The notes below the pieces were generated by a model, which made no database searches, was not told the origin of the DNA, and was given only the letters and a program-made list of their open reading frames with translations. Source: Aquificota bacterium (lineage in GTDB: Bacteria; Thermosulfidibacterota; Thermosulfidibacteria; Thermosulfidibacterales; B14-G1). Taken from it: a stretch of 5,880 bases of DNA. Location: assembly GCA_003648675.1 (NCBI GenBank), contig QMPS01000057.1:1-5880 (forward strand), written 5' to 3'. Positions 2-5,235 of the stretch are shown here, in pieces; position 1 is the stretch's first letter; the number at the start of each line of letters is the position of its first letter. The translations under genes and the position numbers were made by a program.

Positions 2-223
2 TCTTACATAAACCCCGAGGTCTGTGTGGGATGCCAGCAGTGCAAGAAGATCTGCATGTATTCGGCCATTGATTACGATCCCGCCCGGGGAGTCTGTGTG
101 GTGAACGAGGCCGTGTGTAAGGGCTGCGGTCTTTGTGCCGCCACCTGCCCCAACAAAGCGGTGACGGTGAAGCACTTCAATAATCAGGAGATCTTCTCCG
201 AGCTGGAGGGGGTACTGCTATGA
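2..223 (+). CDS. hdrA: HdrA-like subunit, C-terminal end (5' truncated by window edge)
   Basis: This is the last 73 codons of a gene that enters from the left; the frame is open to the first base. The fragment is a two-cluster bacterial ferredoxin domain. Counting the first whole codon as residue 1, one C-x2-C-x2-C-x3-C motif is at residues 8-18 and a second, ending in CP, follows about 20 residues later. The tail (KHFNNQEIF...) resembles the usual end of HdrA, which has a ferredoxin pair and then a short helix. In HdrA proteins this domain passes electrons from the bifurcating FAD to ferredoxin or a partner subunit in the cytoplasm. The last cysteine of the first motif is followed by Met instead of the usual Pro, but all four ligands are present. 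The stop overlaps the next gene's start (ATGA), and that gene is mvhD, the standard HdrA partner. The HdrA assignment is inferred from the tail plus context; the FAD part is not visible. A GTG at 26 lies inside the first cluster motif and is not a credible start. Confidence 0.8.
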   Translation, partial: SYINPEVCVGCQQCKKICMYSAIDYDPARGVCVVNEAVCKGCGLCAATCPNKAVTVKHFNNQEIFSELEGVLL

Positions 224-658: not shown

Positions 659-3643
659 ATGAGCAAAGAGAGTACTGTGCTTATCTACGGCACCAATCTT
701 GCGGGATATAGGGTGGCCTACGCCCTGGCCAAGATGGGCTACAAAACCGTCATGCTCAATCGGGGGGCCTATGTGGACCAGTACAGGAACCAGGTCTTGG
801 CCCAGCTTCCCCTAGACTTCTGCTGGGCTTGTGGCCACATGCCCCAGAGGCTCTTCATCGGCCTGGGGGCCATGCAGGTCCTCTACAACGCTGACCTTCT
901 GGAGGTATCGGGGGAACCAGGTAATTTCAGAGTGAAAATAAAGAAGCGGGACCACTACGTGAACAACTTTGCCTGCACCGAGTGTGAGGCCTGTGTCCGG
1001 GTCTGTCCCGTTGAGGTGGAGGAAAATGGTACGAAACGCAAGGCCATCTACGTCTACCCTGAGATTGCTTGGGAGAACATCTTCCTCATAGATGAGGAGC
1101 ACTGCACCAAATGCGGTGAATGTGAAAAGGTGTGTCCCACGGGGTGCCTGAAACTGGAGCGCCCCGAGGAGACTTTAGAGATGGAGGTGGGAGCCATAGT
1201 CTTGGCTCCCGAGTTTGATGAGCCCACTCAAGAAGACCTGGCCAAGTTCGGCTACGGTGCCTTGGCCAACGTGGTGAAGTCCTCCGATTTGGCCCGGCGC
1301 TCCCTCCTCACCAACTTTGTGAAAAACTCCCTGGAGCGTCCCTCTGATGGCAAGCTGCCCCAGCGGGTGGCCGTGGTGGTGACTCCCCAGTACAACCAAG
1401 GGGTGGAGTACGAGAGTTACAACGCCACCATCTCCGCCATCTACAGGGCCTATCGCACCAAGGAGCTCATGCCTGAGGCCCAGGTCACCATCTTTTTCCG
1501 GGAGTTCAGGGGTTTTGGCAAGGGCCACCACCGCTGGTACGAGAGGGCCTTGGAAGCAGGGGTGGAGATTGTCCGGGCCCAGGATCTGGAGGTGGAGGGG
1601 ACCGACGGTGACAACGTTAAGATAAAATACACCATGGGAGATGCCCAACGGGAGCTGGAGACGGAGCTCCTCATCCTTATTACGGGTCAAAAGCCACCCG
1701 GCCTGATGAAGAGACTTTCCCAGCTCGCGGGGGTGGAGGCAGATGAACACGGATTCTGCAAAGTGCTGCCCTTCACCTGTGGCAAGACCACTAAGGAAGG
1801 TATCTTCGCCGTGGGTGAGTTCACGGGGCCCAAGGGTAACCCCGAAACGGTGTGGGAGGGTTACGGAGCAGCCGTAGAGGTCTTGGAGTACCTGGGGGAC
1901 AAGAACTTTGCACCGGCGCCTCCTCCCCAGCTCAGGGACGTGGCAGGGGAGCCTCCTAAAATTGGGGTCTTCATCTGCTCCTGTTTCGGGGAGTTCAACA
2001 ACTTCATGGACCTGGAATCCCTGGCCCAGAAGGCTCGGGAATTACCGGGAGTGGCCCATGTGGAGATTATCAAGGGCTGCTGTACCCCGCCTTCCATCCA
2101 GGAGACGGCTCAGGCCATAAAGGCTTCGGGGGTGAATCGGGTGGTTCTGGCGGTGTGCACCCCCCTGCAGAAGCTCCTCAAGTTCAGGCGTACGGTGATG
2201 ATGGCTGGTCTTAATCCCCTCCTGGCCGAGTTTCTCCGTCTAAGGGAAGATGTCATCCGGGTTCACGAGGACAGGGAAGCCATGGAAGAGAAGGCCCTAG
2301 CCCTCATCGCTTCCGGAGTGGAGAAGGTGAGGAAGGCCCAGGCGGCACCTCCCCCAATGGATACTTTCCAAAGCTCAGTGCTTGTCATTGGCGGAGGGCC
2401 TGCGGGTATGGAGGTTGCCCTGGCCGTGGCCGACAGAGGCTTTCCTGTGACTCTAGTGGAGAGGGAGGATAAACTGGGCGGCCTAGCCCTGGATCTTAGA
2501 GTGGACCTGGAGGGCCATGACCTTTCGGCTTACACGGCGGAGCTGATGAAAAAGGTGGAAGGTCATGCCAATATCAAGGTTCTCACCGGGGCCGAAATCA
2601 AGGATCTGTGGGGCTACGCCGGCCATTACTATGCCCAGGTCCGGGTAGGGGAGGAAAGCCACCTGGTGGAAGCAGGCATCGTCGTTCCCGCTGTGGGGGC
2701 TAAACCTTTCGATCCCCAGGGGGCCTTCCTTTATGGCCAGGATGAGAGGGTCCTCACCCAGAGGGAGCTGGAAGAAAGGCTTTATCAGGGGGATGTGCTG
2801 GAAGGACCCGTGGTTATGATTCAGTGTGTGGGATCCAGGAATAAGGCCCATCCCTACTGCAGCAGGGTCTGTTGCTCTCAGGCATTGAAGAACGCTCTGG
2901 CCCTGGCGGACAAGGGTGTGGAGGTGACCATCCTCTATCGGGATCTTAACACCTATGGATTTAAAGAGGACTACCACCGTATGGCCCTGGAGAAGGGGGT
3001 AAGGTTCATCCGTTTCTCGGGTGACGCCTATCCCCAGGTTACAGCGGAGGAGAAGGGGCTGAAGGTGAAGGTCCATGACATAGACAGGGAGAGAGACCAA
3101 GAACTGGAGGCGGGCCTGGTGATTCTTTCCGTGGGTATTGTGCCCGATGTGGAGACCAGCCGGCGTCTGGCCCAGTGGCTGGGTTATAAGCTGGACCCCG
3201 AGGGATTCTTCGATACAGAGACCAGCATGTGTCCCTATGAAGAAGCCATAAAGAGGCTCATGAAGCCCTGGGAGCTATCCAGCAACGCTATCTTCCCTGT
3301 GGGGTTAGCCCATTCGCCCAGGTCCCTCACCGAGGCCTTGCTCACGGCTAAGGACGCTGCGGGGCGGTCCCTAACCGTGCTGGGGAAGAAACAGCTTCCG
3401 CCTCCCAACGCCATGTTTGTCTCGGCGGTGAGGGAGTCCAAGTGTGTGGCCTGTGGTCTATGCGTAGAGGTCTGTCCTTACTACGCCCGGGAGATAGACG
3501 AGGCGAAGGGCGTAGTGAAGGTGAGGCCTTTCCTGTGCGACTCCTGCGGGGCTTGCCTAGTAGCCTGCCCTAGTGAAGCCGCGTACTTAAGGGATGCCAG
3601 GGGCGAGCAGATGATCCCCAGCATAGACGCCCTGTTGATGTAG
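659..3643 (+). CDS. hdrA: Double (tandem) HdrA-like iron-sulfur flavoprotein, 994 aa
   Basis: Two HdrA-type units are joined in one chain. Half 1 (about 1-412) has a weak Rossmann start (GTNLAG at 11-16), C55-x2-C58 where HdrA has its CSMC-like pair, and an inserted two-cluster ferredoxin (C106/109/112/116 and C149/152/155/159). It also has an HdrA-like FRGFGKG segment (283-289) and a closing GIFAVGEFTGPKG (381-393). Half 2 begins with an HdrA N-terminal domain (434-560; C440, C442, C474, C475, C500). It continues with a canonical FAD motif GGGPAG (578-583) ending at E601, then CVGSRN with C734, C738 and C739, then YGFKEDYHR (766-774). It closes with a two-cluster ferredoxin (C929/932/935/939 and C960/963/966/970). 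A Pro/Ala-rich linker (about 418-433) separates the halves. In HdrA the FAD is the bifurcation site. Here only half 2 shows an intact FAD signature; half 1 lacks the second glycine and the acidic ribose-binding residue, so it may act only as an iron-sulfur relay. The nearest comparisons are HdrA, QmoB and the long HdrA-like BamE of class II benzoyl-CoA reductase. It is cytoplasmic and flanked by mvhD genes on both sides. Confidence 0.9.
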   Translation: MSKESTVLIYGTNLAGYRVAYALAKMGYKTVMLNRGAYVDQYRNQVLAQLPLDFCWACGHMPQRLFIGLGAMQVLYNADLLEVSGEPGNFRVKIKKRDHYVNNFACTECEACVRVCPVEVEENGTKRKAIYVYPEIAWENIFLIDEEHCTKCGECEKVCPTGCLKLERPEETLEMEVGAIVLAPEFDEPTQEDLAKFGYGALANVVKSSDLARRSLLTNFVKNSLERPSDGKLPQRVAVVVTPQYNQGVEYESYNATISAIYRAYRTKELMPEAQVTIFFREFRGFGKGHHRWYERALEAGVEIVRAQDLEVEGTDGDNVKIKYTMGDAQRELETELLILITGQKPPGLMKRLSQLAGVEADEHGFCKVLPFTCGKTTKEGIFAVGEFTGPKGNPETVWEGYGAAVEVLEYLGDKNFAPAPPPQLRDVAGEPPKIGVFICSCFGEFNNFMDLESLAQKARELPGVAHVEIIKGCCTPPSIQETAQAIKASGVNRVVLAVCTPLQKLLKFRRTVMMAGLNPLLAEFLRLREDVIRVHEDREAMEEKALALIASGVEKVRKAQAAPPPMDTFQSSVLVIGGGPAGMEVALAVADRGFPVTLVEREDKLGGLALDLRVDLEGHDLSAYTAELMKKVEGHANIKVLTGAEIKDLWGYAGHYYAQVRVGEESHLVEAGIVVPAVGAKPFDPQGAFLYGQDERVLTQRELEERLYQGDVLEGPVVMIQCVGSRNKAHPYCSRVCCSQALKNALALADKGVEVTILYRDLNTYGFKEDYHRMALEKGVRFIRFSGDAYPQVTAEEKGLKVKVHDIDRERDQELEAGLVILSVGIVPDVETSRRLAQWLGYKLDPEGFFDTETSMCPYEEAIKRLMKPWELSSNAIFPVGLAHSPRSLTEALLTAKDAAGRSLTVLGKKQLPPPNAMFVSAVRESKCVACGLCVEVCPYYAREIDEAKGVVKVRPFLCDSCGACLVACPSEAAYLRDARGEQMIPSIDALLM

Positions 3644-3653: not shown

Positions 3654-4082
3654 ATGGAGGATAAGGGTTTCACCCCGAAGATCATATACGCCCTGTGCGC
3701 CTGGTGCGGCACGGGAGGCTCTGAGACGGCGGCAGCATACTGGCTTAAATATCCAGAGAACGTACTTCCTTTCAGGGTCACATGCACCGGCGCTCTGGAT
3801 GCCAGCTACGTCCTCAGGGCCCTTATAGAGGGTGCCGATGGCATGGTGGTGAGCGGGTGCCATCCCGGCGACTGCCATTACAACTTGGGCAATTTCCGGG
3901 CTAGGCGGCGTTTGGCTGTTATGAAAGAGGTCCTTAACACCCTGGGGCTAGGCGGTGAGCGCCTCTGGCTGCGGTGGGTGGCCCATGGCGAGGGCAAAAA
4001 GCTAGTGGACACGGCCTGGGAGTTTGATGCCCACATCAGGGAGAAGGGACCCAATCCCCTGGTAGGTCGTTGGGACACGTGA
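3654..4082 (+). CDS. mvhD: MvhD-type [2Fe-2S] subunit, divergent copy 2
   Basis: A 142-residue MvhD/FlpD-family protein of normal length. It keeps the five candidate cluster cysteines: C15-x2-C18 (ALCAWCG), C44 (RVTCTGALD), and C69 and C74 in SGCHPGDCHY. It also keeps the GADG turn (60-63) and the terminal GPNP. A by-eye ungapped alignment with copy 1 gives about 60 identical residues in about 138, so it is an old paralogue and not a recent duplicate. It has lost the ADLAGVSR stretch that follows the first cysteine pair in copy 1 (here GGSETAAAYW) and the arginine after CSS (here CTGALD). These are positions where family members are usually well conserved, so it probably docks on a different partner. 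By family role it relays electrons between HdrA and a dehydrogenase. Its position between the double HdrA and the FrhB-like gene suggests it bridges those two; that is inference. Confidence 0.9.
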   Translation: MEDKGFTPKIIYALCAWCGTGGSETAAAYWLKYPENVLPFRVTCTGALDASYVLRALIEGADGMVVSGCHPGDCHYNLGNFRARRRLAVMKEVLNTLGLGGERLWLRWVAHGEGKKLVDTAWEFDAHIREKGPNPLVGRWDT

Positions 4083-4089
4083 GGGAGGG
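4081..4089 (+). promoter_or_regulatory. Shine-Dalgarno deciding the FrhB-like start
   Basis: GAGGGAGGG overlaps the end of the mvhD copy 2 stop codon and places a GGAGG core five bases before the ATG at 4094. This favours ATG 4094 over the in-frame TTG at 4070 and GTG at 4079, both of which lie upstream of the ribosome site. Confidence 0.75.
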
Positions 4090-4093
4090 TGCC

Positions 4094-4462
4094 ATGCTGG
4101 TGGTCAAAGAGAAGAGAAACAGGGTCCAGGGGCTGAAAGACCTCCTCAAAGGCCTGCTGGAAAAGGATGTGGTGAAGGCCCTGCTGGTGCCTATGAGGAT
4201 TCCTTCAGGGGAGTCCTTCGCCCACGTTCTCACCCGGGAGGCTGCTCTGGTGGATGATGCCTGGCCCATACCTCCCGTTATGACGGTCCAGGGGGCCCGG
4301 GTGGTCTCCAAGCTCACCCGGAAGGGCCCCGTGGATAAACCCACGGCTGTGGTCCTCAGACCATGCGAACTCAGGGCCATGAGGGAGCTCATAAAGCTCA
4401 ATCAGGTGAAGCCCGAAGGGCTTCTCACTATCAGCTTTGACTGTCAGGGGCCTACCCTTTGA
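4094..4462 (+). CDS. FrhB/FdhB-like protein, N-terminal part (frame broken at its 3' end)
   Basis: This frame codes for 122 residues starting MLVVKEKRNR. It resembles the N-terminal domain of the coenzyme F420 hydrogenase/dehydrogenase beta-subunit family (FrhB/FdhB). The signature is AVVLRPCELRA (85-95, C91), a helix with KLNQV, then TISFDCQG (112-119, C117), matching the family pattern RPC-[DE]-[IL]-RA ... DC-x-G. Family members bind FAD and iron-sulfur clusters and exchange electrons with F420, or in bacteria with other acceptors. The frame stops at a TGA (4460-4462) four residues after DCQG, far short of a complete FrhB. The missing part continues directly in the frame one base back. I read this as the front piece of a single gene of about 380 codons (4094-5235) interrupted by a one-base loss. 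The alternative is that it is a real separate small subunit. No signal peptide or membrane segment is visible. Confidence 0.75.
   Translation: MLVVKEKRNRVQGLKDLLKGLLEKDVVKALLVPMRIPSGESFAHVLTREAALVDDAWPIPPVMTVQGARVVSKLTRKGPVDKPTAVVLRPCELRAMRELIKLNQVKPEGLLTISFDCQGPTL
4441..4460 (+). other. Frame-break site within the FrhB-like gene (G run 4447-4450)
   Basis: The downstream frame is closed by a TGA at 4438-4440 and the upstream frame ends at the TGA at 4460-4462, so the switch must fall between these points. The interval contains a run of four G. One additional G, or a -1 slip there, makes the protein read DCQG-AYPLKDYIEG without interruption, joining the FrhB N-terminal domain to its C-terminal domain. 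The possible causes are a sequencing or assembly error in a homopolymer, a true inactivating mutation, or recoding. No canonical X-XXY-YYZ slippery heptamer is seen. Confidence 0.7.
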
Positions 4463-5235
4463 AAGACTATATAGAGGGGGACAGGGGAAGGTTGGAGGAG
4501 CTTTTCCAGAAAAGTCTGGGGGCCCAGGAGTTACCTGAGGCTAGACCCCTGTGTCAGGTCTGCTACCATTTCACCGGTGAGTTGGCGGACATCGAGGTGG
4601 GGTTCGTCGGGGCGTCTGAGGACGAGTATTACCTTGTTGCCAACTCTCCTGAGGGGGAAGAGGCCTTGAAGACCCTGGGCTATCAGGGAGGAGGGGACCT
4701 AAAGGAGCGGGAAGAGGCCTTGAAAGAGATGAAGGAGGCCCGTCGGCAAAAGAGAAGGACCTACTTTACCGAGGAGTTTGGCAGCCAGATCTCCGGACCT
4801 GATGCCCTTCTGTCCACCTTGCACGACTGCACAAATTGCCACAACTGCATGAGGGTGTGTCCTATCTGCTTCTGCAGGGAGTGTTTCTTCGATTCTGATG
4901 CCCTCAAGGTGAGTCCGGATAATTACCTGGGCAGGGCCCGAAAGAAGGGGGCCCTCAGGCTTCTACCGGACACCCTCCTCTTTCATATGGGAAGGATGAA
5001 CCACATGAGCCTGTCCTGCGTCTCCTGCGGGGTCTGTGAAGACGCCTGCCCCAATGGAGTACCCGTATCCCGTCTCTTCGCCATGGTAGGAGACAGGACT
5101 AGGGCCATATTCGACTACGAACCTGGCAGGGATTTGGAAGAATCCATTCCCTTCCTGGACTACAGGGAAGAAGAGCTCCAGGAGTGGGAAGCACCCTACA
5201 CACAGAGCACCACCCACTGCCCATCCTCTTCATAA
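4459..5235 (+). CDS. FrhB/FdhB-like iron-sulfur protein, C-terminal part with two-cluster ferredoxin
   Basis: This frame is open from 4441; the first possible start is TTG 4459. In numbering of the restored 380-residue protein, C154-x2-C157 followed by ELADIEVGFVG (163-173) is the FrhB/FdhB C-terminal domain signature. A charged helix (about 203-222) follows. Next come C246/249/252/256, three extra cysteines in CPICFCRECFF (259, 261, 264), a DTLLFHMGRMNHMS segment, and C309/312/315/319 ending in CPNG. The whole resembles bacterial FdhB/FrhB-like proteins that fuse an FrhB unit to a two-cluster ferredoxin and occur beside HdrA/MvhD and formate-dehydrogenase genes. The likely role is carrying electrons between the Hdr/MvhD modules and a soluble carrier or a catalytic dehydrogenase; the acceptor is not visible. 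If translated alone, the TTG would overlap the upstream stop (TTGA) and could use AGGGG at 4446-4450. The unbroken domain match makes a single original gene more likely. The tail after about residue 367 (TQSTTHCPSSS) looks unconserved. This is the last gene of the operon. Confidence 0.82.
   Translation: MKDYIEGDRGRLEELFQKSLGAQELPEARPLCQVCYHFTGELADIEVGFVGASEDEYYLVANSPEGEEALKTLGYQGGGDLKEREEALKEMKEARRQKRRTYFTEEFGSQISGPDALLSTLHDCTNCHNCMRVCPICFCRECFFDSDALKVSPDNYLGRARKKGALRLLPDTLLFHMGRMNHMSLSCVSCGVCEDACPNGVPVSRLFAMVGDRTRAIFDYEPGRDLEESIPFLDYREEELQEWEAPYTQSTTHCPSSS

Follow-up and report, generated by a model that had tools for sequence, protein, structure and literature searches.

HdrA proteins with two fused thioredoxin-reductase-like cores in one chain, known as type II or double HdrAs, have already been described (PMC9012536; PMC12054007; PMC9430772). 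For HdrA3/HdrA4 of anaerobic methanotrophic (ANME) archaea, a heterodimer-like complementation within one chain was proposed (PMC9012536), and two residues, E356 and K409, which 75% of type II HdrA sequences retain, were proposed as marks of bifurcating flavins (PMC12054007). How HdrA chooses between splitting electrons and plainly passing them on is an open question. The modules of HdrA are reportedly reviewed by Appel et al. 2021, according to papers that cite it. Here, we analyzed a double HdrA (P0001) encoded on contig QMPS01000057.1 of an Aquificota bacterium (assembly GCA_003648675.1); the 5,880 nucleotides of the analyzed stretch are referred to as the window. We propose that this fused protein, whose first half is predicted to be free of flavin adenine dinucleotide (FAD), acts as an iron–sulfur wire from an FrhB2–MvhD2 arm on its second half to ferredoxin, and we put the chance that this is correct at about even.

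Motifs lost and kept in the double HdrA

The gene and its elements lie in the window as follows.

659..3643, forward strand: double HdrA P0001, 994 residues
659..1894, forward strand: half 1 (residues 1–412), thioredoxin-reductase-like HdrA core with inserted ferredoxin
689..706, forward strand: GTNLAG for GGGxAG (residues 11–16), middle Gly replaced, outer two kept
755..766, forward strand: LNRG (residues 33–36), N34 in the position of the acid that follows beta-2
821..832, forward strand: CWAC (residues 55–58), equivalent of HdrA C194/C197
929..1174, forward strand: inserted two-cluster ferredoxin (residues 91–172)
1364..1444, forward strand: conserved Cys-free stretch (residues 236–262; T242, E252, N255, Y262) replacing CVGSR..CxxxCC..K409
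1826..1846, forward strand: GPKGNPE for GPKDIPE (residues 390–396), Asp lost
1955..3640, forward strand: half 2 (residues 433–994), HdrA lacking C194/C197 and an inserted ferredoxin
1955..2356, forward strand: N-terminal HdrA domain of half 2 (residues 433–566; Cys 440, 442, 474, 475, 500)
2390..2407, forward strand: FAD motif GGGPAG of half 2 (residues 578–583)
2825..2875, forward strand: HA4-type cluster motif CVGSR..CSRVCC of half 2 (residues 723–739)
3419..3589, forward strand: C-terminal two-cluster ferredoxin of half 2 (residues 921–977)

Twelve positions were checked in half 1, namely the three Gly of GxGxxG, the acid after beta-2, the Gly of ATG, E356, the four cluster Cys, K409, and the Asp of GPKD; apart from E356 and K409, these are presumably ligand positions. 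Ten of the twelve are altered, as judged against 111 single-HdrA rows. N replaces the middle Gly at position 13 (Gly in 104/111) and the Glu/Asp at 34 (acidic in 105/111), E replaces the ATG Gly at 185 (Gly in 108/111), A stands at the E356 site at 212 (Glu in 98/111), T, E, A, and T replace C386, C399, C403, and C404 at 242, 252, 256, and 257 (Cys in 108, 108, 107, and 110 of 111), Y occupies the K409 site at 262 (Lys in 104/111), and G replaces the GPKD Asp at 393 (Asp in 99/111). Three of the 111 rows show T242, E252, and Y262 because they (P0122, P0123, P0131) are themselves pieces of the FAD-less family described below. C55, C58, and all eight Cys of the inserted ferredoxin are kept. An earlier note on this DNA had described just such a double HdrA, with an altered first half that retains its ferredoxin and CxxC, and the comparison confirmed it.

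With so many flavin- and cluster-motif positions lost, half 1 is predicted to lack FAD and, to judge from its sequence, likely holds no flavin. Pfam models of FAD/NAD Rossmann folds point the same way: when two FAD-less half 1s (that of the window and that of a homologue in genome G106) were tested, none matched at the N-terminus, while several matched half 2 of the window and all three intact half 1s used as controls. Together with the ferredoxin Cys and C58, found in every family sequence, this supports the earlier suggestion that half 1 would be a flavin-free iron–sulfur conduit.

P0001 contains the thioredoxin-reductase-like core with inserted ferredoxin by which HdrA is recognized, and has two such cores in one chain, as in type II HdrA; the FAD site that type II proteins have in both cores appears to be absent from half 1. 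Half 1 also lacks the N-terminal domain and the C-terminal ferredoxin, and the N-terminal cluster domain and C-terminal ferredoxin of HdrA are found in half 2 only. The earlier note had credited half 2 with all FAD and cysteine motifs; its N-terminal domain, GGGPAG, E601, CVGSR..CSRVCC, and C-terminal ferredoxin are present, and it is indeed without an inserted ferredoxin, but a counterpart of C194/C197 is missing. The equivalent of Cys197 is C58 of half 1, the complementary type II arrangement. In methanogens, where HdrA forms a dimer, C197 is a ligand to the N-terminal cluster of the opposite subunit (PMC9012536); the two halves of P0001 therefore complete one another as the subunits of a heterodimer would, though on a single chain. 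P0001 is no equivalog of methanogen HdrA or HdrA2, as it stays below the curated cut-offs of NCBIfam NF040770 (484.4 bits, cut-off 1100) and NF041778 (382.3 bits, cut-off 1400).

Conservation of the altered half and origin of the loss

A family search, as the earlier note had proposed, returned the altered half 1 in all 148 sequences of the set, which comprises P0001, the best 120 of its 1029 homologues (121 sequences), and 27 from a second query. Position 13 is N in 141 and S in seven, N34 and T242 are invariant, and E252 is found in 147/148, while no sequence has E at 212 or K at 262; Cys at 256 together with Cys at 257 occurs only in P0007 and P0024. On the iron–sulfur side, C55 is kept in 147/148, and C58 and the eight ferredoxin Cys in 148/148. 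Among 386 genomes scanned, 34 had a match at E <= 1e-130, and 10 of these belong to the FAD-less family: eight of the window's own order, the window's included, plus G106 and G206. The nine other family genomes share 55–83% identity with the window protein (one own-order match covers residue 405 onward only), and the remaining matches at that threshold have 37% or less. No intermediates between FAD-less and intact forms were seen among the best 120 of 1029 and the best 120 of 198 homologues, nor among the genome matches at E <= 1e-130.

Of the segments compared, the former FAD part of half 1 (residues 5–90) varies least, with a mean column entropy of 0.74 bits in the 121 sequences and 0.73 bits in 39 representatives at 75% identity. 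In 14 rows of FAD-less doubles, this part has 0.59 bits vs 1.50 for the FAD part of half 2; in 14 intact doubles, complete halves only, the values are 1.04 and 1.48. Overall divergence is lower in the FAD-less family, which makes the ratio within the protein the fair measure; it is 0.39, compared with 0.70 in the intact doubles. Thirty half-1 residues are invariant across the FAD-less rows and seldom occur in the 14 intact doubles, many of them at FAD-site places (10Y, 17Y, 34N, 36G, 38Y, 56W, 252E, 255N, 263R, 387E, 394N, 399W). Because its entropy is lowest and these positions are fixed, half 1 is, as far as alignments tell, rebuilt and strongly conserved rather than abandoned. The word flavin-dead, used in the earlier note, thus fits the lost motifs but is too simple for what replaced them.

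Double HdrAs with two intact halves were drawn from a set of 36 sequences, of which two are FAD-less (L048, L049) and seven, having no recognized N-terminal motif, were left unsplit; one entry, L041_1551, is a half 2 listed under half 1. Half 1 keeps every column counted, i.e., E356, CxGxR, C399, C403/C404, and K409, in each of the 25 distant HdrAs (23 fused doubles and two tandems). The GxGxxG region is unreadable in the GltD-containing rows L058, L065, and L066 and in the shortened rows L039, L040, L050, L061, L062, and L063, and L040 has V in place of the GPKD Asp. In a tree built without the trait columns, the half 2s of FAD-less and intact doubles form one clade with a support of 100 in the Shimodaira–Hasegawa-like approximate likelihood ratio test (SH-aLRT), and the stem of the FAD-less half 1s, which is 1.44 changes per column long, arises next to intact N-halves; the half 2 stem measures 0.46. 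As the half 2s share a clade and the FAD-less half 1s adjoin intact N-halves on a long stem, the motifs were most likely lost from half 1 after fusion; the trees are quick searches with SH-aLRT only, leaving deep forks open and carrying a risk of long branches meeting.

A proposed electron route and its rivals

In solved Hdr complexes, the arm and MvhD were proposed to serve the FAD of the partner HdrA, with HA4 of the partner as the exit of the high-potential electron and the shuttle cluster HA3, which approaches the partner's HA5 in state 1, as that of the low-potential one (PMC12350162). Both this low-potential route and that of PMC9012536 end at the inserted ferredoxin. The only arm in P0001 sits on half 2, and its partner is therefore half 1. 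The flavin and HA4 that the arm would serve are lost there and the inserted ferredoxin and Cys197 ligand are kept, so that the remaining parts may form a wire from FrhB2–MvhD2 to ferredoxin. In this route, the FrhB2 flavin would take up or give off an electron pair, and the electrons would pass through the FrhB2 clusters, the C-terminal ferredoxin of half 2, and MvhD2. They could then move one by one through the cluster common to the half 2 N-terminal domain and C58, and/or directly from the C-terminal ferredoxin into the cluster pair of the ferredoxin inserted in half 1, and finally to soluble ferredoxin. Because the arm would face a place without flavin, no bifurcation would be expected there; the half 2 FAD and its adjoining cluster would probably make a second, non-bifurcating electron contact (with HdrC where HdrBC exist), and each chain would be expected to hold one FAD and six [4Fe-4S] clusters.

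An AlphaFold2 model of P0001 built from 121 sequences had a predicted local distance difference test score (pLDDT) of 90.2 and a predicted template modeling score (pTM) of 0.89. Its half 2 with the arm fitted 8rvy (state 1) at 2.8 Å, 7bkb at 6.9 Å, and 5odc at 9.4 Å; Foldseek gave 3.6 Å for 8rvy and 7.5 Å for 8rvu. A control model of the intact double L037 (nine sequences, pLDDT 77.5) fitted 5odc at 3.3 Å, 7bkb at 3.6 Å, 8rvu (state 2) at 4.1 Å, and 8rvy at 9.0 Å. The arm is state-1-like in the P0001 model and in the other state in that of intact L037, which is suggestive only.

Several points weigh against the wire. The models compared are one for each protein and of unequal depth (121 vs 9 sequences; pLDDT 90.2 vs 77.5), and they are ligand-free. 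The trans wiring has itself the standing of a proposal in PMC12350162, and in PMC9012536 the low-potential electron takes another path, by the N-terminal cluster that Cys197 ligates and not by HA3. Half 1 retains Gly 11 and Gly 16 of GxGxxG, and the conservation of its altered pocket looks like that of a binding site. HdrB and HdrC lie in the same cluster at four of nine loci (the window, L015, and L068 being cut by contig ends), and CCG proteins occur in nine of the 10 family genomes. The half 2 flavin, which the wire does not use, matters, because its GxGxxG (Gly 578, 580, 583) and the four Cys of CVGSR..CSRVCC are kept in 148/148; P0001 itself also carries both bifurcation residues in half 2, E705 and K744.

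These last features are what would be expected if the half 2 FAD were the sole true bifurcating flavin and half 1 removed the low-potential electron through its inserted ferredoxin, in one trans circuit whose N-terminal cluster would be common to half 2 and C58 by the Cys197 rule (PMC9012536). The earlier note had likewise made half 2 the flavin site in a division of labour, which our comparison did not bear out for one shared circuit: in the proposed wiring, the arm, Cys197, and inserted ferredoxin are set around the partner's flavin, i.e., the lost one (PMC12350162), and such a division deprives the half 2 flavin of a partner arm, of an adjacent cluster with a Cys197 ligand, and of its own inserted ferredoxin. 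Both signature residues are present in only 52 of the 148 half 2s (K alone in 44, neither in 52) compared with 21 of 25 in intact doubles and tandems, so that both flavin sites drift from bifurcation. We regard half 2 bifurcation as rather unlikely. Slightly less probable, in our judgment, is that the former FAD pocket was rebuilt for another ligand, e.g., a phosphorylated nucleotide, and is catalytic itself. The thirty fixed positions, the low entropy of the former FAD part, and the long stem followed by conservation would suit a new ligand, but no ligand-binding Pfam family matched the N-terminal part of half 1, the conservation could serve packing and docking of the half 2 N-terminal cluster, and the aromatic replacements may merely fill a void.

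Continued FAD binding by half 1, by way of a divergent motif, is quite improbable, given that the motif positions other than the two Gly are altered and that the Rossmann models matching intact half 1s find nothing at its N-terminus. Simple decay once the second flavin became superfluous is hardly credible: many functional positions were indeed lost together, but the low entropy and the intact ferredoxin Cys and C58 already contradict it. A broader reading, which we hold to be less likely than not, is that a widespread bacterial clade turned a bifurcating machine into a post-bifurcation wire, with the half 1 pocket emptied and rebuilt as a new conserved site (relay or ligand) and an FrhB-type flavin and ferredoxin exchanging electrons unsplit. 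The flavin motifs and adjoining cluster were removed where the MvhD arm would face, and the low-potential exit was kept, while a second, flavin-competent core in the same chain serves as an internal control. Purified P0001 would test the trans flavin as the bifurcation site, as well as transfer from the arm to the inserted ferredoxin without a flavin. The case is also a warning that a label such as HdrA or FAD-dependent oxidoreductase, given on architecture alone, implies neither two flavins nor bifurcation.

Neighboring genes and comparison with known complexes

The other genes of the window are the following.

2..223, forward strand: upstream HdrA with GltD insertion, C-terminal ferredoxin only, truncated at the contig edge
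220..645, forward strand: MvhD1 (FlpD)
3654..4082, forward strand: MvhD2 (FlpD), adjoining the double HdrA
4070..5235, forward strand: FrhB2 (FdhB/ElpB-like), in two overlapping frames

In the window's own order, the genes run FrhB1–HdrC–HdrB–HdrA with GltD insertion–MvhD1–double HdrA–MvhD2–FrhB2, complete in L012–L014 and cut in FrhB1 in L017. The double HdrA is followed by MvhD2 and FrhB2 in the window and all eight other loci (9/9), including L068, whose sequence starts within the double HdrA gene, and L016 and L067, where no HdrB or HdrC lies on the same stretch. No CCG (HdrB) match was found in G106 (92% complete), so the FAD-less double HdrA is not strictly tied to heterodisulfide chemistry. 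The upstream partner in L012 (5468–8872) is a type III HdrA of 1134 residues, whose ferredoxin contains an NfnB/GltD-like insertion and whose FAD and cluster motifs are intact; pieces of such a gene lie on contigs C167 and C57 of the window's own genome.

The best PDB matches of FrhB2 are FdhB/ElpB. In the window, FrhB2 is split over the overlapping forward-strand frames 4070–4462 and 4459–5235, by an assembly error or a true break. Selenocysteine or a programmed frameshift was dropped as an explanation, as FrhB2 is in a single frame at five of six same-order loci (L012–L015, L017) and L016 is split elsewhere. The electron donor is unlikely to be F420, because the F420 ligase PF01996 was found in none of the 10 family genomes (and in three control genomes). 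A Wood–Ljungdahl (MetVF-type) role in the own order was set aside, since CdhC/ACS had no match in the eight own-order genomes searched (G002 left out); one of the 10 family genomes, G106, has an ACS match, and neither MetV nor MetF was among the identified cluster genes of the double-HdrA loci. Dissimilatory sulfite reductase was also discarded: DsrA was above the cut-off in 0/10 genomes, with two weak matches below it, and control genomes had none above it either.

Among the intact relatives, L037 (6609–14867) has a double HdrA adjoining an HdrB-like gene and, presumably, FolD-, MetF-, and CODH-like genes, which, HdrB excepted, we named by eye; this cluster is probably a methylene-tetrahydrofolate reductase type complex. 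L041 (373–3893) and L042 (257–3405) have unfused tandem genes for half 1 and half 2 HdrAs with FAD motifs in both, possibly relatives of the pre-fusion state. HdrA matches in G028:C67, G031:C48, G014:C209, G009:C1, and G243:C141 contain an in-frame stop (TGA or TAA), and the TGA might encode selenocysteine.

We found no report of an HdrA half with FAD and cluster motifs gone among the papers listed by searches of an open-licence library. Methanogen Elp-Hdr and Fdh-Hdr (8rvy/8rvu, 7bkb) share with P0001 the FdhB/ElpB–MvhD arm on the N- and C-terminal domains of HdrA, whereas they have a symmetric HdrA dimer, two FAD, HdrBC, and an F420 donor (PMC12350162). Each accessory domain of the single Methanothermococcus HdrA (5odc) is present once in P0001, but the core is there twice and unequal, with the accessory domains divided between the cores. 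The HdrAs of Sporomusa ovata and Moorella thermoacetica (MetVF-HdrABC-MvhD) also have an extra thioredoxin-reductase core first, and their second half, as in P0001, consists of a first domain (termed MvhD-like there), core, and C-terminal ferredoxin without an inserted ferredoxin (PMC9430772). The M. thermoacetica protein keeps both E/K pairs and has a GltD domain, while S. ovata has the pair (E160, K216) in its first core only, a core that lacks a ferredoxin domain, the second being the core without the pair (PMC9430772); the first core of P0001, unlike that of S. ovata, has lost E/K with the FAD and cluster motifs and kept its ferredoxin. ANME HdrA3/HdrA4 are type II proteins that likewise have two fused thioredoxin-reductase cores (PMC12054007, PMC9012536) and the N-terminal domain and Cys197 on separate halves; in them the N-terminal domain belongs to the leading half, the reverse of P0001, and the ANME HdrAs all appear to retain the FAD residues (PMC9012536, Fig. 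8 legend), which half 1 of P0001 has lost.
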